Origin: a virus
Length of the DNA stretch: 64,000 nt
IMG/VR virus record: IMGVR_UViG_3300017917_003143
Span: 279,633 to 343,632 of that record
Reading direction: 5' to 3' (one strand)
Shown: piece after piece, positions 5,698 through 49,455 of the stretch
Layout of the letters: each line of letters begins with the position of its first letter
How positions within the stretch are numbered: the first letter of the stretch is position 1
The notes under the pieces: generated by a model
The model's database searches: none
Told to the model about the DNA's origin: nothing
What the model saw: only the letters and a program-made list of their open reading frames with translations
Made by a program: the position numbers and the translations under genes

Positions 5698-6321
5698 ATG
5701 GCTCGTTACCTAAGAGAACACCTTACTTTTGACGCCGCTCGTATTGTACTCGAGGGCGCCGAAGGTAAGGACCTTTATATGAAAGGTATTTGTATCCAGG
5801 GTGGAGTCAAAAACGCCAACGAGCGTGTGTATCCGGTGAGTGAAATTGAAAAAGCTGTTCGTCAAATCAACGAACAGATCCAAGGTGGATACAGTGTTCT
5901 CGGTGAAGTTGATCACCCAGATGACCTTAAGATTAACTTAGATCGTTGCAGTCATATCATGACAGAAATGTGGATGGATGGCCCCAACGGATTTGGTAAG
6001 CTCAAGATTCTCCCAACACCAATGGGTAATTTGGTACGCACCATGCTTGAAAGTGGTGTGAAATTAGGAGTTTCAAGCCGCGGTAGCGGAAACGTTAACG
6101 AGGCCAATGGACATGTCAGTGATTTTGAAATTGTCACTGTCGATGTTGTTGCCCAACCCAGTGCGCCCAACGCATATCCAACAGCCGTATATGAAGGCTT
6201 GATGAACATGAAATATGGTCATCGAGTGTTAGAAATGGCCAAAGATGCTGGAGAGGACAGCAAGGTACAGAGATATTTGAGAGACGAGGTAACTCGCTTG
6301 ATCAAAGATCTCAAGATTTAG
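5698..6321 (+). CDS. 21: Prohead core maturation protease, T4 gp21-like
   Basis: The 207-residue serine protease would cleave the scaffold, the capsid protein prosequence and internal proteins during head maturation. The catalytic signatures are visible: His73 in LGEVDHPDD and Ser126/127 in KLGVSSRGSG, the arrangement of gp21-type proteases. Length equals T4 gp21 (212 residues). It lies between the acidic core protein and gp22, in T4 order, with an AAGG ribosome site 5 nt before the ATG. Its expected cleavage rule ([LI]-x-E) is the basis for the internal-protein finding at 40.8-44.8 kb. Confidence 0.92.
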   Translation: MARYLREHLTFDAARIVLEGAEGKDLYMKGICIQGGVKNANERVYPVSEIEKAVRQINEQIQGGYSVLGEVDHPDDLKINLDRCSHIMTEMWMDGPNGFGKLKILPTPMGNLVRTMLESGVKLGVSSRGSGNVNEANGHVSDFEIVTVDVVAQPSAPNAYPTAVYEGLMNMKYGHRVLEMAKDAGEDSKVQRYLRDEVTRLIKDLKI

Positions 6322-6330
6322 GAGAAACGC

Positions 6331-7419
6331 ATGCTAGATGCCATCAAACCGTTACTAGATAGCGACCTAATCAACGAGGAAACTCGTACAGCGATCTCAG
6401 AACAATGGGAACAAAAGCTGAACGAAGCTCGTGAGGTGGTACGTGCAGAACTCAGAGAAGAGTTTGCACAACGCTATGAGCATGACAAACAAGTGATGGT
6501 GGAAGCCCTAGATCGCATGGTAACAGAAGGTCTCGCCGCAGAGATCCAAGCTGTGCAAGCTGAAAAGCAAGCATTGGCCGAAGATCGCGTCAAGTTCAAT
6601 GTCAAGATGAAGGAATCAGCTACAAAGTTTAACGACTTTATGGTTTCTAAACTTGCAGAAGAAATTGGTGAACTGCGTAAAGATCGCAAAATTCACACAG
6701 AATCAATCCAGAAATTGGAAAGTTTTGTCGTGAAAGCTCTTGCTCAAGAAATCCGTGAATTCGCACAAGACAAGAAGGATGCGGTGGAAACCAAAGTCCG
6801 TTTAGTCCGTGAAGCTCGCAAACAGCTTGAGACATTGAAAGCACGTTTCGTAAAAGAAAGTGCTGACAAGATGAGCAAATCTGTAGCCAAGCATCTCAAG
6901 GCTGAACTTAGTCAACTCCACGAAGACATCAAAGTTGCTCGCGAGAACAATTTTGGTCGTCGTATCTTTGAAGCATACGCCGCTGAATTCGGTGCTACTC
7001 ACCTCAGTGAGAACGCAGAAATCCGTAAGCTCAACAGCGTTATTGCTGCCAAAGATCAGAAGTTGGCTGAAGCCATCAAGATCACCGAGAAGGCTAAAAC
7101 CCTCGTTGAATCAAAAGAACGCGAGATTCGCATAATCCGTGAATCCAATGAGCGAGCAAAGCTCATGGACGAACTGCTTGGACCTCTTAACGAGGAAAAG
7201 GCCGGTGTTATGAAGAATCTGCTAGAAAACGTTCAAACATCCCGTTTAAAGAACGCTTTCGAAAAATATTTGCCAGCTGTGCTCGCAGATAACAAACCAG
7301 CAAAAGCTAAGTCAGTGATTGCTGAGAGTGTTACTGAAGTCACTGGTGATAAATCTGCAAAGGTTGTAGCGGAAGATCGCAGTAATGTGATCGACCTTAA
7401 ACGCCTGGCAGGGCTTTAA
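6331..7419 (+). CDS. 22: Prohead core scaffolding protein, T4 gp22-like
   Basis: The 362-residue protein is almost wholly charged helix (for example EQKLNEAREVVRAELREEF and QLETLKARFVKESADKMSKS), as expected of the major scaffold on which the capsid assembles before proteolysis. It contains several potential gp21 sites such as LLE and LSE. A GGAG ribosome site lies 8 nt before the ATG, 9 nt after the protease stop. The C-terminal VIDLKRLAGL just before the capsid gene is typical of gp22 homologues in environmental T4-like phages. T4 gp22 is 269 residues, so this one is longer. Confidence 0.88.
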   Translation: MLDAIKPLLDSDLINEETRTAISEQWEQKLNEAREVVRAELREEFAQRYEHDKQVMVEALDRMVTEGLAAEIQAVQAEKQALAEDRVKFNVKMKESATKFNDFMVSKLAEEIGELRKDRKIHTESIQKLESFVVKALAQEIREFAQDKKDAVETKVRLVREARKQLETLKARFVKESADKMSKSVAKHLKAELSQLHEDIKVARENNFGRRIFEAYAAEFGATHLSENAEIRKLNSVIAAKDQKLAEAIKITEKAKTLVESKEREIRIIRESNERAKLMDELLGPLNEEKAGVMKNLLENVQTSRLKNAFEKYLPAVLADNKPAKAKSVIAESVTEVTGDKSAKVVAEDRSNVIDLKRLAGL

Positions 7420-7444: not shown

Positions 7445-8647
7445 ATGTCACAAGAACTACTAGAAAGCCGTTGGGATGAGACCAAAGAAGCCCTACTCGA
7501 AGGCCTACAAGGTGCTCGTCGCTCAACCATGGGTGTTGTTTTAGAAAACACTCGCAAATACTTGAAAGAGAATGCTTCTGCAGGCTCAACAGTTTCAGGT
7601 AATATTGCAACATTAAACCGTGTGATCCTACCAGTGATTCGACGTGTTATGCCAACCGTTATCGCTAACGAGTTGGTTGGCGTTCAGCCAATGACAGGTC
7701 CAGTTGGACAGATCCACACATTACGTGTTCGTTATGCTCAGAGCTTGACAGACAACTCAGCCGCACAAACATCAGTTACAGCTGGTGAAGAAGCGTTGAG
7801 CCCATTCAAGATCGCTCAGGCATATTCGCGTCAAGTATCCGGTGTTGCTGGTGATACAGCTACCGAGTACACAGGTGCTAACACAGCAACTCTTGAAGGC
7901 AATGGTGGTCGTCAGATCTCTGTTCAAATCTTGAAGCAAGCTGTTGAAGCTAAGACACGTAAGCTACAAGCTCGTTGGACATTCGAAGCCGCGCAAGATG
8001 CACAAGCTATGCACGGTATCGATATCGAAGCTGAAATCATGGCAGCTCTTGCACAAGAAATTACTGCTGAAATTGACCAGGAGATTCTCCTGTCACTCCG
8101 CACTCTTGCAAGCACAGAGTTTACATACAACCAAGCTACCGTTTCAGGTACAGCTACATTCGTTGGTGACGAACACGCCGCATTGGCAGTTTTGATCAAC
8201 CGTGTTGCTAACTTGATCGCTCAGCGCACACGTCGTGGCGCTGGTAACTGGGCTGTTGTATCCCCAGCTTCATTGACTGTTCTACAGTCTGCAACAACTT
8301 CTGCTTTTGCACGTACAACAGAAGGCACATTCGAAGCACCTACAAACACCAAGTTTGTTGGTACATTGAACGGTGCTATGCGTGTGTTCTGCGACTCTTA
8401 TGCCGCAGACTCAACACCAGTTCTCGTTGGTTACAAAGGCGCAAGCGAAACTGATGCAGCCGCATTCTACTGCCCATACATCCCATTGATGTCAAGCGGT
8501 GTTGTGCTGGATCCAAGCACATTCGAGCCAGTCGTATCGTTCATGACACGTTACGGCTACATCGAACTCACAAACACAGCATCTTCATTCGGTAACGCCG
8601 GTGACTATGTTGGTGAGATTGCTGTTTCTAACTTGTCATTCTCTTAA
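7445..8647 (+). CDS. 23: Major capsid protein, T4 gp23-like
   Basis: The 400-residue protein builds the head lattice. Residues 56-85 (LPVIRRVMPTVIANELVGVQ, then PMTGPVGQI) match the conserved gp23 core start, and later segments (IDIEAEIMAALAQEITAEID, GAGNWAVVSPASLTVLQS, PYIPLMSSGVVLDPSTFEP) are typical. The N-terminal prosequence ends in KYLKENASAG, where L40-K41-E42 followed by Asn43 fits the gp21 cleavage rule; the propeptide would be 42 residues, against 65 in T4. A long AGGAAGGAAGAAGGAG run gives a very strong ribosome site. A perfect terminator follows 23 nt after the stop. No gp24 vertex gene is in the window. Confidence 0.95.
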   Translation: MSQELLESRWDETKEALLEGLQGARRSTMGVVLENTRKYLKENASAGSTVSGNIATLNRVILPVIRRVMPTVIANELVGVQPMTGPVGQIHTLRVRYAQSLTDNSAAQTSVTAGEEALSPFKIAQAYSRQVSGVAGDTATEYTGANTATLEGNGGRQISVQILKQAVEAKTRKLQARWTFEAAQDAQAMHGIDIEAEIMAALAQEITAEIDQEILLSLRTLASTEFTYNQATVSGTATFVGDEHAALAVLINRVANLIAQRTRRGAGNWAVVSPASLTVLQSATTSAFARTTEGTFEAPTNTKFVGTLNGAMRVFCDSYAADSTPVLVGYKGASETDAAAFYCPYIPLMSSGVVLDPSTFEPVVSFMTRYGYIELTNTASSFGNAGDYVGEIAVSNLSFS

Positions 8648-40285: not shown

Positions 40286-40783
40286 ATGACTAAGAAATTA
40301 GAAGAACTGTTTGATCTACCTCGCAAAGAGGACGCCCAGGGCACAGACGATCCTGAGGATTCACACCCAGGCAACGATGTTGAAACCAATCTTCCAGTAT
40401 TGCCCGAAGCCTTGGCAGCACTGGACAAGATAGAGTCTGCTCTGCCAGCTGTGCGTGGCCTAGAAGCATCTGATCAGGAAATGGATGATCTCGCCAAAAA
40501 AGCCACTGAAAGTTTTGACAACCTCATGGACTTGGGCATGCAAGTAGACAGCCGTTATGCCAGCGAAATCTTTGCAGTGGCAGGTGCCATGTTAGGGCAT
40601 GCGATCACAGCCAAAACAGCCAAACTAAACAAAAAGCTCAAAATGATCGATCTACAGCTCAAAAAAGCCAAGCTCGATCAAGACAACGACGAACCCTCTG
40701 TGTCCACCGGTACCGGTGTGCTGTTGGATCGCAATGAAATACTGGAACGCTTGAGCAAGCGCGAACAACCAAAGAAGCCTTGA
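40286..40783 (+). CDS. 16: Terminase small subunit, T4 gp16-like
   Basis: The 165-residue protein has the size and layout of T4 gp16 (164 residues): an acidic N-terminal region, then a central helical hairpin (YASEIFAVAGAMLGHAITAK followed by LNKKLKMIDLQLKKAKL) that parallels [20 protein letters not shown] of T4 gp16, and a polar tail with VSTGTGVLLDRNEIL, comparable to the VFMGSPTELM of T4. It would form the DNA-recognition ring for packaging. The large subunit lies 7 kb downstream, so the terminase genes are split. Confidence 0.72.
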   Translation: MTKKLEELFDLPRKEDAQGTDDPEDSHPGNDVETNLPVLPEALAALDKIESALPAVRGLEASDQEMDDLAKKATESFDNLMDLGMQVDSRYASEIFAVAGAMLGHAITAKTAKLNKKLKMIDLQLKKAKLDQDNDEPSVSTGTGVLLDRNEILERLSKREQPKKP

Positions 40784-40811: not shown

Positions 40812-41414
40812 ATGAAAACTTTTGCAGAATACTTAACAGAATCCAAGCACACATACGATTATCGTATTAAAATAGCAGGGGATATTCCTCCTGATTTTAT
40901 GAGCGGGTTCAAAGAAAAGCTCAAGCAATTTGACGTGGTGTCAATGAGCGCACCTAAGAAAACACCGGTGCAAAAACAGTTGTCTGATTTTCCTCAGTAC
41001 AACAATGAAAGCATGACTTTCATGGATGTTACTTTTAACTATCCAGCAACACCGCCACAGATCACACAGATCGCTCAGTTATTGGGCCTTGATCCTAACC
41101 GTATCATCATGCAAGATTCTAAGTATGCTGACAGTATTGATCAAGAACGTGCCAAACAAGATGCAGAGAGCAAAAACTTGCTGACTGACACAGATTATCC
41201 AGCTCCTGACAAAGAACAAAAAGCACTATCCAAAGACTACGCAGTCGGCCCCTACGATCATGCTGTGGTCAAGAATGCTTACAAGAGTGATTTCACCGTG
41301 GCAGGAGGCAAGACTCCGCCTGCAGTGAGTTCCAATGATTTCCCAATGGGACAAAAGAGTCCAGTTGGAACAACTAAAAATAAATTGCCAGCTGTACACA
41401 GCAACGCCAGATAA
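40812..41414 (+). CDS. Putative internal head protein 1 (capsid-targeting peptide)
   Basis: The first ten residues MKTFAEYLTE align without gaps with the T4 capsid-targeting sequence MKTYQEFIAE of IPI-IPIII, with identical M, K, T, E6 and E10 and matching aromatic and aliphatic positions. L8-T9-E10 followed by Ser11 fits the gp21 cleavage rule. The remaining 190 residues (HTYDYRIKIAGDIPPDFMSG, then VVSMSAPKKTPVQKQLSDFP) suggest a small alpha/beta domain and a polar tail. It is first in a late cluster of similar tagged genes. Packaging into the head and injection with DNA are inferred. Confidence 0.7.
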   Translation: MKTFAEYLTESKHTYDYRIKIAGDIPPDFMSGFKEKLKQFDVVSMSAPKKTPVQKQLSDFPQYNNESMTFMDVTFNYPATPPQITQIAQLLGLDPNRIIMQDSKYADSIDQERAKQDAESKNLLTDTDYPAPDKEQKALSKDYAVGPYDHAVVKNAYKSDFTVAGGKTPPAVSSNDFPMGQKSPVGTTKNKLPAVHSNAR

Positions 41415-41425
41415 GGAAAAAACAA

Positions 41426-43066
41426 ATGAATAACATGTATGACATACTCGGTAAAATGAATTTGCTGGAAGGCAAAGGTAGCAAACCTGACTTCCTTGAT
41501 CTGGACAAAGATGGCAACAAAAAAGAACCAATGAAGTCAGCGGCCAAGGAAGTTGATGAAGCATCATATTCTGCCAAAGCCGCTCGTGCTGGCAAAGACA
41601 TTGGCAAGCCAGGCAAAGCATTTGCACAGATAGCTGCCAAAGCTGGCAAGGCCTATGGTAGCAAAGAGCGTGGCGAGAAAGTTGCTGGTGCTGTGTTGGC
41701 CAAACTCCGTGCCAAAGAAGATGTGGCACAAGAAGGCAACAAGTTCACAGGCAATCTAGCCAAGGCTCGTGCCGCAGGCAAAAAAGTAGCAGACCTTGAT
41801 GGTGACGGAGACATGGAGCCAGTGCGCGAAGGTAATCTTGAAGAACTTGACATGAAGTTGCTCAAAGGACTACAAGGTGCAATGAGCAAGAATCAAAAGG
41901 ATCCAGAGAGCGAGCGCAACATCCACAAGAAATATGGATACCGCAGTGATCGTGACGAGACATCAGACGACGACTATGATGAGCACGGCAATCTCAAAGA
42001 CAAGAAAAAAGCCAAGCACAAAGATGATGGTCCTAAGAAAAAAGGACGCCCCAAAGGTTCAGGCCGTAAACTTGGAGCCAAAGGTCCTACAGGCAAGAGC
42101 AAATTGCTCCGTATGAAAGAAGACGAAACACAGTTGGTAGACAAAGGCGAATACGATCGCGAAGGCGACATGGCCAAAGAGCAGTTGCACACTATCGAAG
42201 CCGCTGCCAAAGAATTACACAGTATCCTTGGCGATGATCAGAACTTGCCAGAATGGGTGCAATCAAAGATTACCAAGGCCATGGACTACATTGACACAGC
42301 ACGTGACTATATGTTGAGCCAAAGGCACGATCAAGAAGAAATGCCTGTGGCTGAAAAGGCTGTGAGCAAAGCACAACAACGTTTCATGGGCATGGCACAT
42401 GCCATGCAAAAGGGCGAAAAGATTCCTGGCGCCAGCAAGGAATTAAAGCAAGTAGCCAAGACCATGAAGAAGGGTGACGTAGAAGATTTTGCTAAAACCA
42501 AACACTCAGGTCTTCCTGAAAAGAAAAAGAAGGAAGAAGAAGTCGAAGAAACCACAGTGGCTGGTAGCGTAGCACCTGCACCTGCTGGCGGAAAAGGAAA
42601 AAAAGGTATGGTATTTGGCAAGGGAGTATATGAAAACAAGATCGCTGAGAGCTTTGACAAGAAATTAGGCGAAGTGCTCAACGAAGGCATGAGCATCAAT
42701 ATGAGCATGGGCGAAGACGGACAGAAAAGCCTTACAGTCAACGCCACAGATGACGATGCTGTAAAACTTGCGCAGATTCTCAAATTGGCTGGCATGGGTT
42801 CAAGCCATGGTTACCAAGACGCATGCCCTGCATGTGGACAGCAAGATTGTGGTTGTGAACAGATGGACGAAGCACAAGATGATTTGGCCAATTCTCCTGA
42901 TGAAGAAACAGAAACAACAGAATACATGACCAAAACGATCGCCGGCGGCTTGAACAAGAACAAGGTAACAGGAATGACTACAATACCTGTGGTGCCTACC
43001 CAGCAAGTCACTGAAGCTGAGATTGAAAAAGATCTCATGAATCTTTACAAACAGTTTAAAGCATAA
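41426..43066 (+). CDS. Large multidomain putative internal head protein with Cys knuckle
   Basis: The 546-residue protein begins MNNMYDILGKMNLLEGKGSK; L13-L14-E15 followed by Gly16 fits the gp21 rule. It contains two Ca-loop-like stretches (FLDLDKDGNKKEP and VADLDGDGDMEP), a basic segment GKAFAQIAAKAGKAYGSKER with KVAGAVLAKLRAK, a Lys-rich block KKKAKHKDDGPKKKGRPKGS, and near the C-terminus CPACGQQDCGCEQM. The basic tracts suit DNA contact inside the head. Its stop overlaps the next start by 1 nt. Function unknown; several internal [LI]-x-E sites suggest it could be cut into pieces during maturation. Confidence 0.6.
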   Translation: MNNMYDILGKMNLLEGKGSKPDFLDLDKDGNKKEPMKSAAKEVDEASYSAKAARAGKDIGKPGKAFAQIAAKAGKAYGSKERGEKVAGAVLAKLRAKEDVAQEGNKFTGNLAKARAAGKKVADLDGDGDMEPVREGNLEELDMKLLKGLQGAMSKNQKDPESERNIHKKYGYRSDRDETSDDDYDEHGNLKDKKKAKHKDDGPKKKGRPKGSGRKLGAKGPTGKSKLLRMKEDETQLVDKGEYDREGDMAKEQLHTIEAAAKELHSILGDDQNLPEWVQSKITKAMDYIDTARDYMLSQRHDQEEMPVAEKAVSKAQQRFMGMAHAMQKGEKIPGASKELKQVAKTMKKGDVEDFAKTKHSGLPEKKKKEEEVEETTVAGSVAPAPAGGKGKKGMVFGKGVYENKIAESFDKKLGEVLNEGMSINMSMGEDGQKSLTVNATDDDAVKLAQILKLAGMGSSHGYQDACPACGQQDCGCEQMDEAQDDLANSPDEETETTEYMTKTIAGGLNKNKVTGMTTIPVVPTQQVTEAEIEKDLMNLYKQFKA

Positions 43067-43740
43067 TGAAAACACTGCGCGAATACATCACTGAATCAGA
43101 ACAATGGATGGATAACCCAGCCGTTGGTGATGACTTTGCGATCAACATCAAAGAAGATTGTTTGATTGAAAGCCATATCATCGCAGTAGAAGAAGATAGA
43201 CTCTGCATCGAAGCTGATGAAAAATTGATGGCCATATTAGAAAGTTATGGATATCAATTAGAAGACAAGTGTTCTGTCTGCGGGCACGAAGCCTGCACCT
43301 GCGAAGATCTTGATGAAATGATGAGCGTGGACGATGTGTTGGTCAGTGAAGATCCCACAGAAGAAGAGCCAATGACTCCTGGTCGTGATGATCCAGATGG
43401 TACTACAGCCGATGATCCAATCGGCGAAGATTCTGGCGAAGAAGATGGCATGCCATTGGATATCGACGAAGCTGAATATCAAGGTCGCAAAGTGCCCTTG
43501 GGTAAGCCCATGCGTGGTGATGTCAAGAAGTTCAAAGTTTATGTGCGTGATCCCAGCACTGGCAATGTAAAAAAAGTCAACTTTGGCCACGGTGGTACAT
43601 CGGCTAAACGTCTTGGTCAGAAGACCATGAAGATCAAAAAATCAAATCCTGCACGTCGTAGATCATTCCGTGCTCGCCACAACTGCGACAATCCAGGACC
43701 AAGAACCAAAGCAAGATATTGGTCTTGCCGTGCGTGGTAA
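43066..43740 (+). CDS. Putative internal head protein 2 (capsid-targeting peptide, Cys knuckle)
   Basis: The 224-residue protein starts MKTLREYITESEQWMDNPAV; the first ten residues again match T4 MKTYQEFIAE, with cleavage expected after I8-T9-E10. It carries CSVCGHEACTCEDL, a twin of the Cys motif in the preceding protein, a long acidic middle, and a basic C-terminus with FKVYVRDPSTGNVKKVNFGH and RRRSFRARHNCDNPGPRTKA followed by RYWSCRAW. The RARHNCD...ARYWSC ending is one I have seen in environmental phage proteins of unknown function. The acidic-basic layout suits an assembly or DNA-associated head protein. Confidence 0.65.
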   Translation: MKTLREYITESEQWMDNPAVGDDFAINIKEDCLIESHIIAVEEDRLCIEADEKLMAILESYGYQLEDKCSVCGHEACTCEDLDEMMSVDDVLVSEDPTEEEPMTPGRDDPDGTTADDPIGEDSGEEDGMPLDIDEAEYQGRKVPLGKPMRGDVKKFKVYVRDPSTGNVKKVNFGHGGTSAKRLGQKTMKIKKSNPARRRSFRARHNCDNPGPRTKARYWSCRAW

Positions 43741-43755
43741 ACAAGGAAAATAAAA

Positions 43756-44034
43756 ATGGCCGCAAACGTATACACATCATTGGCTAATGCCACAGTCTAT
43801 ACAGATAAACTACAGATAATTACTACTTCAAACGCTGTAACATACCAGGTTTATGCTACAGCACTGGGCTCTGCTCCAGCAGTTGGTAATATTTACAGCG
43901 AACCTATTAACATTCCAGCCCATACCGTGTTTGAAGTATATGCCGGTGCCGGTAACAAAGTTACTGTGGCTGGTTCTAATTGGACAGCACTTGAATTAGG
44001 GACAGCGAGTTCAGCACAAGAAAGCGTGTTCTAA
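43756..44034 (+). CDS. Small beta-rich structural protein, relative of 12488-12802
   Basis: The 92-residue protein (MAANVYTSLANATVYTDKLQ) resembles the 104-residue protein at 12488 in length and in the INIPAHTVFEVYAGAGNKVT segment (compare ITITVGDTYQLYAGAEKLLL). An AAGGAA ribosome site precedes the ATG. It ends 1 nt before the next ATG. A virion decoration protein is plausible; no targeting peptide is present, unlike its neighbours. Confidence 0.6.
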   Translation: MAANVYTSLANATVYTDKLQIITTSNAVTYQVYATALGSAPAVGNIYSEPINIPAHTVFEVYAGAGNKVTVAGSNWTALELGTASSAQESVF

Positions 44035-44035
44035 A

Positions 44036-44449
44036 ATGAGAGCACGAGAGTTTGTCACAGAAGACGCTGGATTCAACGGGTTTGATCACGACGAGTCTAC
44101 CGGTCGTCGACGTCCTACTAAAAAACACCAAAAAGGTCATCCTGACAATTGGTACGTAGCTACCAGTCCGGGTGCCATGCGTATTGACAACCTTGACAAG
44201 TATTATGATCTATATCGTATGAGTATGATCATGGCTGGCGGCCCCACAGATGACGTAGCTGATGAAGAATCTTACATAGCCAACAGTCCTGTGTTGAGTG
44301 GGTATACTGATGAGGATGATGAAAAAATTAAGTACGCTGCCAAACGCATGGGCGGAGTGATCAGAGATATTGCACCACCTGGCAGCCGCGAACCTCAAGA
44401 TACACAGAAACAGAGTCCAATCAAAGCATTCAAAGGTTACCCAAAATGA
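44036..44449 (+). CDS. Putative internal head protein 3 (MRAREFVTE tag)
   Basis: The 137-residue protein begins MRAREFVTEDAG, a nine-residue variant of the capsid-targeting peptide with V7-T8-E9 before Asp10. It ends SPIKAFKGYPK. The next gene has the same kind of start and the same C-terminal tag, so the two are a paralogous or tag-sharing pair with different middles. The middle here (GHPDNWYVATSPGAMRIDNL and YDLYRMSMIMAGGPTDDVAD) has no known motif. The stop overlaps the next start (ATGA). Confidence 0.65.
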   Translation: MRAREFVTEDAGFNGFDHDESTGRRRPTKKHQKGHPDNWYVATSPGAMRIDNLDKYYDLYRMSMIMAGGPTDDVADEESYIANSPVLSGYTDEDDEKIKYAAKRMGGVIRDIAPPGSREPQDTQKQSPIKAFKGYPK

Positions 44450-44832
44450 GAGCACGTGAGTTTATCACCGAACAAGAAAATCTTGCACCTGAGCAAGCCG
44501 CTCCCATGCGACAAACTTATGTGATTCCTGGACTCAGCGCCGCGGATCCTTACAAAAATTATAGATTTGGTGTGGCCATAGCACGAGCCAGATCTGATCA
44601 AACACCCGATGACATCAACCCACACCGACCCGAGTGGTCAAAAGAAACACCATTTGGTGAGCATGGTGTGGTAGTGGGCATGAATGCAGGAATCAAACCT
44701 GTGATTGATGCCGCACTGAAGATGACAGGTACCCCAGGTGGCAAACGAATAGTATCAACTCCAGCCAGCGACGAGCCAGAGTTCGTGGAAAAAATCAGTC
44801 CAATCAAACCCTTTAAAGGATATCCACGGTAA
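44446..44832 (+). CDS. Putative internal head protein 4 (MRAREFITE tag)
   Basis: The 128-residue protein begins MRAREFITEQEN (I7-T8-E9 before Gln10) and ends SPIKPFKGYPR. The middle contains YRFGVAIARARSDQTPDDIN and FGEHGVVVGMNAGIKPVIDA with ALKMTGTPGG, different from its neighbour but with a similar Tyr-Arg...Ala helix start. The conserved ends and variable middle resemble a cassette for delivering different cargoes to the head. The stop overlaps the next start by 1 nt. Confidence 0.65.
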   Translation: MRAREFITEQENLAPEQAAPMRQTYVIPGLSAADPYKNYRFGVAIARARSDQTPDDINPHRPEWSKETPFGEHGVVVGMNAGIKPVIDAALKMTGTPGGKRIVSTPASDEPEFVEKISPIKPFKGYPR

Positions 44833-46439
44833 TGGCCACGCCAAATCCCTCAGAAGTAGCACCATGGTATCTGCGTAACATAACGCAGGCCCTGGAACTG
44901 GACGAAGCCACAGGCAATGTATTTGTCCGTACCAATGCGGCCATACTTGGCAATGTATCAGTGGGTAATGTATCTATTGGCGCATTAGGCAACATTGACC
45001 TAACAGGTAACACCATGCCGGTGTCTGTTATAGGCGATGTCACAGTTCTACAAGGCACCAATCCTTGGGTAGTCACTGGCAACACAAATGTAGCTATCAC
45101 ATCGGGCAATGTAGGCATCACAGGCAATGTCAACGTCACACAAGGTACAACACCTTGGACAGTGTCCGGCAATGTGGGGATCTCAGGCACAGCCAATGTT
45201 GTGTTGGCCGAAGATGCCAATGTAGTCATCTCAGGATTCAGCGGTGCTGTGTCAGATGCGTTTGGCCGACTGCGTGTGAGCGAACCTTACACCCTGTTTG
45301 ACACACAGGCTCGTTATTTTGATCATCAACAGTTTGCCAGCAACGTCACAGGCACTGGCAACGTTGTTTACGTACAAAATCAAAGCTCGTATCAACTCAA
45401 TGTGGGTTCAGCATCAGGCGACAGCGTACTAAGAGAAACCTTAAAAGCATTTCCTTATCAACCAGGCAAGAGTCAACTTACATTAAACACATTCTGTTTT
45501 AACACACCCAAGACCAATCTGCGCCAGCGTGTGGGATTGTTTGATGCTGACAACGGTGTGTTCTTTGAAAACGATGGAGAATACAACTACTTTGTGATCA
45601 GATCAGGCTCCACAGGAGTAGAAGAGCGTGTGCGTCAAGACGCCTGGAACGGCAATCAACTGCTTGGAGTAGTCAACACCAATAATCCCTCAGGTATAAA
45701 TCTATATCCTGATCGTACCCAGATCATGTTTGCTGACGTAGAGTGGTTGGGTGTGGGTTCGGTGCGTGTAGGATTTGTGATCAACGGTGCTTATGTCATC
45801 TGTCACACATTTAATCATGCTAACCAACCAGGCAATACAAAAGTCTACATGACCACGGCTACCTTGCCCATACGCTATGAGATAACCAACACTGGTGCTA
45901 CTACTGGTGCCAGCATGATGACACAGATATGTAGCTCGGTGATTTCTGAAGGGGGATTCCAGTTAGCAGGATCAGGTAATCCTCGTGCGGCCTCGCATGT
46001 TATAGGTACTCCGGTTCGATTGCCCAACGATCAGAGTTTTAAACCAGTGCTGTCAATCAGATTAAAGAGCACCAACTTAGATGCCGTGGTCATTCCTATC
46101 AACTATTCTTTGGTTCCTGTTGCACAGAGTTTATTCCAATACCGAATCTATAAAAAAGCTGTCACATCAGGCGGCTCATGGGTCAGTTCAGCCGCAGACA
46201 GTTCAGTGGAATACAATCTTGCACCTACCGCATTGGTATCTGGAGATATAGCGGAACAAACTTTTCTAAACTCCAGTAACCAAAGTAGTCAAGCACCTAC
46301 ACAGACATCATTTACATTCGTATATCAATTGGAGCGAGAGCCATTTACAGGCGTAGCATATGAATATGTGATCATGGCTGCCACCACAGGTACTAATCAA
46401 GACGTTTACGCCAGCATTGAATGGCAGGAGATTACATAA
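44832..46439 (+). CDS. Fibre- or adhesin-like structural protein
   Basis: The 535-residue protein has an N-terminal Gly/Asn/Val-rich repeat region (GNVSVGNVSIGALGNIDLTG and GNVGITGNVNVTQGTTPWTV), comparable to fibre shafts, followed by a linker with VSDAFGRLRVSEPYTLFDTQ and a C-terminal globular region of about 380 residues (for example RVGLFDADNGVFFENDGEYN and YRIYKKAVTSGGSWVSSAAD). The VSDAFGRLRVSEP element is a joint I associate with large structural proteins of environmental phages. It is likely on the virion surface. It is coupled to genes before (TAATG) and after (TAATG). Confidence 0.65.
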   Translation: MATPNPSEVAPWYLRNITQALELDEATGNVFVRTNAAILGNVSVGNVSIGALGNIDLTGNTMPVSVIGDVTVLQGTNPWVVTGNTNVAITSGNVGITGNVNVTQGTTPWTVSGNVGISGTANVVLAEDANVVISGFSGAVSDAFGRLRVSEPYTLFDTQARYFDHQQFASNVTGTGNVVYVQNQSSYQLNVGSASGDSVLRETLKAFPYQPGKSQLTLNTFCFNTPKTNLRQRVGLFDADNGVFFENDGEYNYFVIRSGSTGVEERVRQDAWNGNQLLGVVNTNNPSGINLYPDRTQIMFADVEWLGVGSVRVGFVINGAYVICHTFNHANQPGNTKVYMTTATLPIRYEITNTGATTGASMMTQICSSVISEGGFQLAGSGNPRAASHVIGTPVRLPNDQSFKPVLSIRLKSTNLDAVVIPINYSLVPVAQSLFQYRIYKKAVTSGGSWVSSAADSSVEYNLAPTALVSGDIAEQTFLNSSNQSSQAPTQTSFTFVYQLEREPFTGVAYEYVIMAATTGTNQDVYASIEWQEIT

Positions 46440-47143
46440 TGAAAAAACTATTAGCCATTCTACTATTTGTACCCGTGGCAGTATGGGCACAAATCAATCA
46501 ACAATGTCCACAGTTTACCAGTCACGGCACACCTGCTTATCAAGCACAGCCAGGTGATCAAGAACTGTGTAAAACAAACTATGCTGTCATCCATCGTTGT
46601 TCAGTCAAAGCACCTGTGGCAGTGTTTGAACATTTGACAGTGGCCGCAATGACAGGTCCTGCCAAACGTAAAGACAACTTCCGACCAGATCCTGCTGTAC
46701 ATCCAGAATGTCAAGCTACCTTGGCCGACTATGCCACAGTGGGCCGCACACACGATCGCGGACACATGGCTCCGGCGGCTAACAACACACAAAATGATCA
46801 GATCATGAGCGAAAGCTTCTTCTTATCAAACATGGTAGCACAAGTGGCCAACAACAATCGTGGTATCTGGAAACAGTTGGAAACTTGGGAACGTGACTGG
46901 GCCATGAAAGGCGGAGACTTCTACATCATCTCCGGTGGTATCTTTGATCAAGGTCATCCAGTGACAGGCAATGGATTGGGCATACCCACACGCCTTTACA
47001 AAGTCATACACGAAAAAGCATCAGGACAGACCATGGCATATCTCATGCCCAATGCTCCACTACCTGTTGCAGATTTACCTAAGTATCAAGTTCCACTGGA
47101 AGCAGTAGAACAAGCCACAGGCTTCCGTTTTCCTTTTAGATGA
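46439..47143 (+). CDS. Secreted DNA/RNA non-specific endonuclease
   Basis: I choose the ATG at 46439, overlapping the previous stop (TAATG), because it gives a clean signal peptide: MKKLLAILLFVPVAVWA followed by Gln18. The 234-residue enzyme has the DRGH catalytic motif of the NUC1/Serratia-nuclease family (D106-R107-G108-H109 in RTHDRGHMAPAA) and the downstream Asn-rich NMVAQVANNNRGIWKQLE that supplies the metal ligand. Cys23, 44, 54 and 91 could form disulfides, which suits export. It would act in the periplasm or outside the cell, on invading or environmental nucleic acid. Confidence 0.87.
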   Translation: MKKLLAILLFVPVAVWAQINQQCPQFTSHGTPAYQAQPGDQELCKTNYAVIHRCSVKAPVAVFEHLTVAAMTGPAKRKDNFRPDPAVHPECQATLADYATVGRTHDRGHMAPAANNTQNDQIMSESFFLSNMVAQVANNNRGIWKQLETWERDWAMKGGDFYIISGGIFDQGHPVTGNGLGIPTRLYKVIHEKASGQTMAYLMPNAPLPVADLPKYQVPLEAVEQATGFRFPFR

Positions 47144-47343
47144 CCGCAGAAGAACTACAGAGACTCGCTGGTATAGGAGTTTATCGACCATATAACCTGC
47201 CTCCAACGGCAGGTTCTAACATCAGCATCACTGGCAATGAAAAAGGCGAGCTGATGAAAAAACACAACATCCAGCCAGGCACACCTGAGTGGTTCCAGTT
47301 ATGGTTCAGTAAGCCTTACTTGACTGGTGAGCATCCTCTTTGA
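47140..47343 (+). CDS. Small conserved-looking hypothetical protein
   Basis: The 67-residue protein (MTAEELQRLAGIGVYRPYNL) ends in HNIQPGTPEWFQLWFSKPYL, a compact motif rich in Trp and Pro. It overlaps the nuclease stop by 4 nt and the convergent HNH gene by 38 nt. The opening AEELQRLAGI resembles a short helix used in protein contacts. No function can be assigned. Confidence 0.6.
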   Translation: MTAEELQRLAGIGVYRPYNLPPTAGSNISITGNEKGELMKKHNIQPGTPEWFQLWFSKPYLTGEHPL

Positions 47344-47864: not shown

Positions 47865-47876
47865 TGCTAACATTTT

Positions 47877-47884
47877 GGTAAGTA
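47877..47884 (+). promoter_or_regulatory. Variant late box GGTAAGTA, 5 nt before the terminase ATG
   Basis: One change from TAAATA. GGTAAGTA, ATACT, ATG closely parallels GGTAAATA, ATACACT, ATG of the portal gene, which supports it as a functional variant. Confidence 0.4.
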
Positions 47885-47889
47885 ATACT

Positions 47890-49455
47890 ATGTCAAAGAG
47901 TTTAGAAGGTGTATTAGTCAAGGCTCCTCATCGGCGCCAACCCTACACTGAACAACAAATCGAAGAATTCGTGAAATGTGCAGACCCTATCACAGGTCCT
48001 CATTATTTCATGTCAAACTTCTTTTTCATCCAACATCCTTTGCATGGCAAGATGTTGTACCAGCCCTATGAATTCCAAGACAGGCTGATAGAAACATATC
48101 ACAATTATAGATTCTCTATCAGCATGATGCCACGACAAACGGGCAAATCGACCTCGGCTGCTGGCTATCTTTTATGGTACGCTATGTTTGTACCAGACTC
48201 GACAATTTTGGTCGCGGCGCACAAGTATTTAGGCGCACAAGAAATTATGCAACGTGTACGATATGCTTATGAAGCCTGTCCAGATCATATCCGTGCTGGT
48301 GTGACATCGTACAATAAAGGATCTATAGAATTTGATAACGGTAGTCGTATTGTAGCACAAACTACTACTGAAAATACCGGTCGTGGTATGTCTATCACAC
48401 TCCTGTACTGTGACGAGTTTGCATTTGTAAGACCTACCATAGCCAAAGAGTTTTGGACTTCTATCACTCCTACATTGTCAACTGGTGGTAAGGCGATCAT
48501 TACATCAACACCAAACTCAGACGAAGATCAGTTTGCCTTGATCTGGAAGCTGGCCAACAAGCTGGAGGATGACTATGGCAACCCAACAGAGATAGGCCAA
48601 AACGGATTCCGTGCGTTCCGTGCGTTTTGGAGAGAGCACCCAGATCGTGACGAAAATTGGGCAAAACAACAAAGAGCAATACTGGGTGAAGAACGATTCC
48701 GTCGAGAGATGGACTGCGAATTCATCATCGATGATGAAACATTGATAGCACCTACCAAACTAGTTGATCTGACATCAAGAGACCCATTGTATAAAACAGG
48801 ACAGGTGCGCTGGTTCCAGAACCCACAACCTGATCGATTCTATGTAGTAGCGTTAGACCCCAGTCTGGGCACCGGCGGCGACCCTGCTGCCATACAAGTG
48901 TTTGATGCCAACACCACCGAGCAAATAGCCGAATGGAGGCACAACAGGACCACGATACCTGAACAGGTACGTATCCTGGCAGATATCTGCAAACACATCA
49001 ACGAAAAGATCAAAGATTCAAAGAGTATCTACTACAGCATAGAAAACAACACCATTGGCGAAGCCGCACTGATATCTATAGCAGAGTACGGCGAAGAAAA
49101 CATACAGGGCTATTTCCTCAGCGAATCAGGTGGCACCAGCGGGCGTAGATATCGTAAAGGATTTAACACTACTAACAAGCCCAAGCTGGCAGCTTGTGCC
49201 AAGATGAAAAATCTGATAGAAACAGGGCGCATGAAAATACACTCAGCCAGCTTAGTCACTGAGCTTAAAAACTTTATCGCATCGGGCGCTGGATATGCCG
49301 CAAAAGCTGGAGAAACTGATGATTTAGTGATGGCTACTATACTTGCAGTGCGCATGATGCAACTGTTGCAGAGCTATCACACTGAACTGGACACGCAATT
49401 ACGAGATCACAGCGACACGGTCATAGAACCCATGCCATTCATAGCAGCCTTCTAA
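47890..49455 (+). CDS. 17: Terminase large subunit, T4 gp17-like
   Basis: I use the ATG at 47890 (MSKSLEGVLV), not an upstream TTG, giving 521 residues (T4 gp17 is 610). The packaging ATPase has Walker A P81RQTGKST88 and Walker B LLYCDEF with D175-E176. The C-terminal RNase H-like nuclease has D323 in VALDPSLGTGGD, E385 in YYSIENNTIG and D477/D478 in GETDDLVMA. It pumps DNA into the head through the portal and cuts the concatemer. The small subunit is at 40286. The gene is divergent from the HNH gene, with 38 nt between the starts. Confidence 0.95.
   Translation: MSKSLEGVLVKAPHRRQPYTEQQIEEFVKCADPITGPHYFMSNFFFIQHPLHGKMLYQPYEFQDRLIETYHNYRFSISMMPRQTGKSTSAAGYLLWYAMFVPDSTILVAAHKYLGAQEIMQRVRYAYEACPDHIRAGVTSYNKGSIEFDNGSRIVAQTTTENTGRGMSITLLYCDEFAFVRPTIAKEFWTSITPTLSTGGKAIITSTPNSDEDQFALIWKLANKLEDDYGNPTEIGQNGFRAFRAFWREHPDRDENWAKQQRAILGEERFRREMDCEFIIDDETLIAPTKLVDLTSRDPLYKTGQVRWFQNPQPDRFYVVALDPSLGTGGDPAAIQVFDANTTEQIAEWRHNRTTIPEQVRILADICKHINEKIKDSKSIYYSIENNTIGEAALISIAEYGEENIQGYFLSESGGTSGRRYRKGFNTTNKPKLAACAKMKNLIETGRMKIHSASLVTELKNFIASGAGYAAKAGETDDLVMATILAVRMMQLLQSYHTELDTQLRDHSDTVIEPMPFIAAF

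Follow-up and report, generated by a model that had tools for sequence, protein, structure and literature searches.

We analysed a window of 64,000 nt, bases 279,633–343,632 of the 343,632-bp IMG/VR virus record IMGVR_UViG_3300017917_003143, which derives from a giant T4-like aquatic phage. Within it, at positions 40812–44832 and between both terminase genes of the window, lies a cluster of genes, four of which encode proteins that begin with a short N-terminal tag resembling the peptide that targets T4 internal proteins (IPs) to the head and is cut by the protease gp21. The cluster contains the following features, given as window positions (a slash in a peptide marks the predicted cut; aa, amino acids; ORF, open reading frame):

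40812–41414, plus strand: 200-aa protein with the tag, an alpha/beta domain of about 90 aa and a disordered tail (ORF)
40812–40841, plus strand: tag MKTFAEYLTE/S, predicted cut after Glu10 (conservation in relatives)
41426–43066, plus strand: 546-aa Lys/Glu-rich multidomain protein with DUF3008 at residues 312–367 (PF11450, E = 1.3e-5)
41426–41470, plus strand: leader MNNMYDILGKMNLLE/G with a conserved LLE/[GS] (relatives MNNMYEILGKMNLLEG, MKNMYEILDRMNLLES and MNNMYDILATMNLLES)
43066–43740, plus strand: 224-aa acidic protein with a basic C-terminal Cys/Trp module, RARHNCDNPGPRTKARYWSCRAW (PHROG 7595, E = 1e-12)
43066–43095, plus strand: tag MKTLREYITE/S, predicted cut after Glu10 (22 relatives)
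43756–44034, plus strand: 92-aa untagged protein within the cluster (ORF)
44036–44449, plus strand: 137-aa member of a tagged paralogous family, C terminus SPIKAFKGYPK (56-member alignment)
44036–44062, plus strand: tag MRAREFVTE/D, predicted cut after Glu9 (56-member alignment)
44446–44832, plus strand: 128-aa paralogue of 44036, C terminus SPIKPFKGYPR (56-member alignment)
44446–44472, plus strand: tag MRAREFITE/Q, predicted cut after Glu9 (ORF and alignment)

The four tagged N termini (40812, 43066, 44036 and 44446) had been noticed in a sequence-only reading of the window and are present in the ORFs as described there; the longer leader that it reported on 41426 is also real, its LLE/[GS] end being conserved in relatives. 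Gene 43756 sits inside the tagged run without a tag. Behind the tags, the mature parts of 40812, of 43066 and of the 44036/44446 pair (the 4403x family) are mutually unrelated. The proposed likeness to T4 holds: MKTFAEYLTE aligns gap-free with MKTYQEFIAE/A, as read for IPII and IPIII from the T4 record; the two agree at 5 of 10 positions, and most of the other differences are conservative. We consider it likely, on sequence evidence, that these tags are a T4-type capsid-targeting sequence (CTS) combined with a gp21-cleavage signal, acting as an exchangeable label for head cargo, and we infer packaging, cutting, injection and effector function.

First, the conserved residues are those that matter in T4. 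Genetics on MKTYQEFIAE assigned targeting to residues 4 and 7 and processing to residues 8 and 10 (PMC9026906), and the coincidence of these positions with the residues conserved here supports reading the tags as a CTS with a gp21 site. Both MKT-type window tags have F or L at residue 4 and Y at residue 7, the MRA-type tags have F at the corresponding place, and an [LIV]xE site closes all four. Among 41 aligned relatives of 40812, part of them selected by tag, M1, K2, Y7 and L8 are invariant and F4 and E10 are conserved in at least 90%; among 56 aligned members of the 4403x family, again partly tag-selected, M1, R2, E5 and F6 are invariant, with A3 and E9 at 90% or above. In both alignments, with this partial selection, the tag positions rank among the most conserved columns. 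The 43066 relatives were found by their mature sequence and not by the tag, and all 22 have Tyr at P4, Leu, Ile or Val at P3 and Glu at P1, while P2 is variable and P1′ is mostly Ser, also Ala or Thr.

Second, the phage encodes the matching protease, and its major capsid protein contains a candidate site of the same kind:

5698–6321, plus strand: gp21-type prohead protease of family S77 (Pfam PF03420, Peptidase_S77, E = 6e-27)
7445–8647, plus strand: major capsid protein gene (PHROG 138, major head protein)
7559–7570, plus strand: candidate gp21 site YLKE/N, residues 39–42 of the major capsid protein (by homology with T4 gp23)

The sequence-only reading had ascribed a catalytic His and Ser to the protease, and the Pfam match is joined by an alignment of their contexts, GEVDHP and GVSSRG, with GELNHP and GVSSRG of T4 gp21. 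In the capsid protein, YLKE/N lies just upstream of GST-SGN, which aligns with GQTSGA of T4 gp23, downstream of the T4 site FLTE/A. An S77 protease was found in G000, T4, PA5oct, Atu_ph07, Phosso and most of the large tagged records.

Third, tags are enriched in this genome. Of the 410 genes called in the entire record, six match the strict motif ^M[KR]x(3-5)[FY][LIV]xE: the four window genes, 133260 (MRATEFVAE) and 143162 (MRAQEFVSE). When residues were shuffled between genes within columns (2,000 runs), the mean was 0.30 matches and the maximum 4, never six, and only 1 of 1,936 internal Met sites matched. A pattern search added a seventh tagged gene, 137907 (60 aa, MRAHEFIVE); the full label stands on at least seven proteins of this phage, and many MRAxE[FL]-like starts occur in a second cluster at 132–144 kb of the record.

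Fourth, the tag behaves as a module across phages. We searched IMG/VR with each tag as a codon pattern, MKTF.E[FY][LIV].E and MRA.EF[LIV].E, and obtained at least 120 stretches for each, against 3 in the whole collection for a control with the same codons scrambled. The matches, pooled with earlier loci and limited to proteins of at least 45 aa, comprise at least 338 tagged proteins, which fall into at least 87 unrelated clusters once the tag is removed (among the matches listed, 68 of the 87 are singletons and 71 have a clean gene start). The pattern is thus larger than the sequence-only reading had described. A few 'tagged' clusters that failed the start test (L257, L309 and L334) are probably internal chance matches. 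In whole records, the MKT-type pattern gave 28 matches in 28 records, with none for a backward control, and the MRA-type pattern 29, with 1 for its control. The search of T4-like genomes that had been suggested as a check recovered, in T4, ipII, ipIII and 61.1 only. HTVC008M, Melnitz-3, immuto and S-PM2 gave no match to the tag patterns; not every marine T4-like phage, then, has the label. The tag also occurs on four consecutive genes in one locus (L123). Among related HAD enzymes (E = 1e-41), that of this phage starts with an MRA-type sequence and those of two other phages with MKT-type tags.

T4 gene 61.1 (NC_000866, 18966–19130, minus strand; L340) begins MKTFKEFIKE/DMVAGDSGG..., the same tag as in the aquatic phages. 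From its sequence, its product may be an unrecognised internal protein; if so, it is an additional candidate cargo.

Two explanations would make the tag something other than a peptide label. Chance likeness of N termini draws on the shortness of the tags and on the MKT pattern's 112 matches in 257 Gb of cellular genomes; 57 of these are N-terminal, 40 of them belong to one Prevotella-type gene, and some of the others resemble phage genes in metagenome-assembled genomes (for example, L506, a 40812 homologue). The shuffles, the scrambled pattern, the backward controls and the cellular genomes reject it, and in T4 the pattern picked out two known internal proteins and one more gene; we give chance almost no credence. 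Alternatively, the tag could be a translation-start or mRNA feature carried on a mobile upstream cassette, as its short N-terminal position might suggest, together with an upstream enrichment of the late-promoter-like ATAAATA (42 of 155 tagged genes versus 153 of 1,181 others in the same loci, p = 1e-5), an enrichment that we also count in favour of the label. Upstream sequences differ, however, and both peptide variants end in [FY][LIV]xE. The codons for Lys, Thr, Arg, Ala, Glu and Phe vary synonymously, every synonymous codon being used at fixed residues, which indicates selection on the peptide and not on the DNA. A DNA-level cassette was rejected on this ground, and we hold a cassette origin to be very improbable.

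The tags precede diverse cargo. Two tagged proteins are Acb1, which counters the cyclic-oligonucleotide-based antiphage signalling system (CBASS), at 82.7 bits (E = 3e-23) in L188 and 96.9 bits (E = 1e-27) in L531, the Pfam cut-off being 27 bits. Both (L531:5332–5940 and L188:2104–2571) are distant Acb1 proteins. Directly upstream, the L531 gene has TATAAATA, a late promoter of the T4 type, along with a ribosome-binding site, which is the arrangement of a late gene; this promoter and the full tag suggest, at the level of sequence, a form of Acb1 that is preloaded. A scan of IMG/VR for relatives of the tagged Acb1 found only that protein itself. Further Pfam matches on tagged proteins are ART-PolyVal on L174 (E = 1e-23), the sole Pfam-confirmed ADP-ribosyltransferase (ART), other ART-like proteins having been recognised by eye; DnaJ on L133 (3e-8); DUF6267 on L237 (1e-32); NTP_transf_2 on L361 (G007; 4e-5); a cytidylyltransferase-like domain on an S-SRM01 protein (9e-7); and GNAT on L393 (5e-4, just over the cut-off). 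HAD matches among tagged proteins are weak. Two tagged cytidylyltransferase-like proteins with the motif GRFNPPTVGH occur in the cultured cyanophages S-SM2 and S-SRM01 (L408 and L413).

Several observations weigh against a targeting tag that is always cut. Two relatives of 40812 lack the Glu, in PA5oct (MKSFRDYYDA/S) and Phosso (MKNFYEYLSS/V), one 4403x paralogue starts MRLFEFSKS, and genes of the second cluster of this phage start without a cleavage site: MRASEFSNS (a HAD phosphatase), MRAWELGEV and MRAQDFIPT. No S77 protease was found in several tagged records, which are fragments. Acb1 proteins of Straboviridae open with a short M..FK[DE]F-like segment that has no site, which weakens the idea that in L188 the tag was cleanly fused to Acb1: the tag may in part be native to the Acb1 family, or the Straboviridae start is perhaps a decayed or uncut tag. 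Finally, packaging and cutting in this phage are predictions from sequence, and virion presence of the 40812 family is supported through the PA5oct relative. The 40812 homologue of Agrobacterium phage Atu_ph07 retains MKTLQDYLTE/S.

The PA5oct, Phosso and MRLFEFSKS cases indicate that a tag can persist without a cut site, and targeting and cutting may come apart, as they do in T4 IPIII with Asp at position 10 (PMC9026906). They would also fit a tag that is a docking helix to scaffold, portal or shell and stays uncut, its Glu and hydrophobic residue forming a binding surface: all three retain the helix without the Glu, the PA5oct protein is still in the virion, and the AlphaFold2 model of 40812 shows helix 4–10 separate from the domain. 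Against this, P3 and P1 are fixed in the 43066 family and P2 is free, the pattern that a protease site should show; the capsid protein of this phage has a similar site, and residues 8 and 10 of the tag act in the processing of T4 IPIII (PMC9026906). We therefore regard a permanently uncut docking helix as unlikely, and favour the combined targeting and cleavage signal.

A separate question is what the labelled proteins do. The sequence-only reading took those of the window as candidate effectors injected with the DNA; its targeting and cleavage part is well supported by sequence, whereas the effector step is weak for the five window genes. None of the five has a recognised effector domain, and the 40812 family is conserved, syntenic and detected in virions. 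Its homologue in the Pseudomonas phage PA5oct, EST35_0202, lies in the same gene order and is annotated as a structural protein by electrospray-ionization tandem mass spectrometry (ESI-MS/MS), as is the gene next after it. Conservation, gene order and these data on a relative suggest that the 40812 family is a regular head component.

The statement that the mature sequences match nothing proved too strong. The 40812 protein, with 78 relatives in IMG/VR, matches PHROG 14802 ('virion structural protein') weakly from residue 1 (E = 0.007), 43066 matches PHROG 7595 and 41426 matches DUF3008. AlphaFold2 models 40812 as a helix at residues 4–10 (predicted local distance difference test (pLDDT) 59), a domain at 15–102 (pLDDT 82–88) and a disordered tail. 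In fold searches the domain resembled ferredoxin-like folds (ribosomal S6, PII and HPPK) at low template modelling (TM) score, its structural relatives in the viral library were phage proteins without names, from which no function could be derived, and a comparison with the Ip7 protein of phage MX01 was weak (E = 0.013, TM 0.38). Profiles of the 40812 and 4403x families matched nothing among solved structures except one marginal, unrelated chain. The model of 44446 (pLDDT 84, predicted TM score (pTM) 0.56) consists of three helices only, too little structure for a fold search. Both 43066 and 41426 are charged, modular proteins whose domains are common to other aquatic phages: the modules of 41426 are common to cyanophage proteins, and the C-terminal module of 43066, RARHNC(D)NPGP..KARYWSC..W, is likewise found at the end of proteins from phages of Pelagibacter, Roseobacter, Methylophilales and Flavobacterium. 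Some of these phages have genomes of only 32–54 kb, so this module is not tied to T4-type heads.

The window proteins could accordingly be ordinary head or neck structural proteins, kept for their role in assembly, with the cargo or effector idea left to other tagged genes. Such a role would not conflict with the tag mechanism; the effector step is all that it competes with. The 40812 family speaks for it by its conservation, its synteny between the terminase genes in PA5oct and jumbo phages and its detection in virions, as does the wide distribution of the 4403x family, with one to four paralogues per locus. The 4403x genes nevertheless differ in copy number and in sequence (38% mean column identity over the 56 aligned), unlike a fixed structural part, and we rate the chances of the structural alternative as evenly balanced. 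Our best reading is that the genes of the window cluster encode, for the most part, conserved contents of the head. Judged by sequence, the second cluster and the tagged Acb1, ART, GNAT, DnaJ and nucleotidyltransferase proteins of relatives are a better fit to 'effector' than the window genes are.

Under the combined targeting and cleavage reading, the N-terminal helix would build tagged proteins into the prohead core late in infection, a hydrophobic residue near position 4 and [FY] ahead of the cut serving targeting. The S77 protease would then cut after [LIV]-x-E, and the mature proteins would remain among the packed DNA, some of them being ejected with it into the next host. That one short label marks a large, exchangeable arsenal, preloaded and injected by aquatic T4-like and giant phages and including anti-CBASS proteins and ADP-ribosyl-, acetyl- and nucleotidyltransferases, strikes us as having about an even chance of being right.

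The closest known systems are those of T4, whose internal proteins counter type IV restriction on arrival of the DNA and whose Alt protein is a packaged ADP-ribosyltransferase cut by gp21. The tags share with the 10-residue CTS of IPI, IPII and IPIII their length, register and key residues 4, 7, 8 and 10, and in both cases unrelated mature parts follow one tag in a phage with a gp21-type protease. The set here differs in being larger and more varied, in its second, 9-residue MRAxEF variant and in that some members are conserved virion proteins and not accessory ones. The tagged ART-PolyVal protein L174 repeats the packaged-ART idea of Alt, but it comes from another ART family and has a tag of the IPIII kind. 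Likewise, L188 and L531 share the Acb1 domain with the T4-type anti-CBASS protein and carry the full tag with a cut site, whereas homologues of isolated T4-like phages have only M..FK[DE]F-like starts. In PhiKZ and SPN3US, many head proteins are cut after Glu by a gp21 relative (PMC9026906), and their inner-body and ejection proteins resemble ours in that different head proteins are trimmed after Glu; the PhiKZ sites follow S/A-X-E, apparently without any further requirement, and no short common N-terminal tag is described there. Polyvalent proteins, with ART and GNAT domains, are thought to enter with the DNA (PMC7824862), but they are large and multidomain, whereas here many small proteins stand under one label.

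T4 Ip1–3 have only the leader in common, and the three block different GmrSD restriction enzymes; that leader has served to catalogue the ip genes of T-even phages, of which at least ten are reported (PMC12373910; see also PMC9391042). A review of Lindsay Black's work suggests that, by means of the CTS, T4-like phages can carry a variety of proteins (PMC9026906). In the openly accessible literature, which leaves out subscription journals, we found no tag survey beyond T-even phages and no tagged Acb1. As far as sequence can tell, a second variant and a large cargo set of the T4-type label would be new here. Genomes offer little by which injected phage proteins can be recognised, and for that reason few are known. 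Should the tag prove to mark them throughout the T4-like phages, such proteins could be listed directly from sequence; if Acb1 is preloaded, a signalling defence could be disarmed ahead of any phage gene expression.

The surroundings of the cluster are those of a T4-type head and tail module, with genes for the portal, the S77 protease, the capsid protein, a gp4-like head closure protein, the sheath and two tube proteins, besides the terminase-small-like and large terminase genes. No near DNA matches to the window were found in isolate phages. The flanking genes are:

40286–40783, plus strand: terminase-small-like gene, left flank (PHROG 445, E = 0.0016)
44832–46439, plus strand: conserved virion structural protein adjoining the cluster (PHROG 1645, E = 3e-105)
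47875–49455, plus strand: terminase large subunit, right flank (PHROG 36964, E = 4e-116)

In cyanophage S-SRM01, a tagged 102-aa gene, gp208 (MKSFKQFISE), stands directly before gp209, the 44832 homologue, and the terminase large subunit. Four in-frame tags of the MKSF/MKNF type occur in this cyanophage. The description of the cluster as late genes is plausible, although the sequence upstream of 40812 showed no exact late promoter. The late region also contains a nuclease (46421–47143; PHROG 14168, E = 7e-46) whose N terminus resembles a secretion signal.

Short termini recur elsewhere. The scaffold-position protein at 6331–7419 has the C terminus DLKRLAGL, a 67-aa protein at 47140–47343 starts with MTAEELQRLAGI, and several tagged proteins have C-terminal LRKLAGI or LKKLSGI; this likeness is possibly a further short binding motif. 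Some MRA-tagged proteins, at 132298–133074 of the record (L086:12298–13071) and in IMG/VR cluster 3 (for example, L303, L318, L219 and L250), are unrelated except for a basic module at the C terminus, about 60 aa long and ending in GKMYHWCANMKSGRKK, in which they are up to 86% identical; it is a second label, opposite the tag. In the same part of the record (133260–133577), the tagged 105-aa protein MRATEFVAE/D has a marginal match to RegB, the T4 endoribonuclease (E = 0.04, below the cut-off). Just beyond the window, at 246741–261476 on the minus strand of the record, lies a single open reading frame of 4,911 aa.

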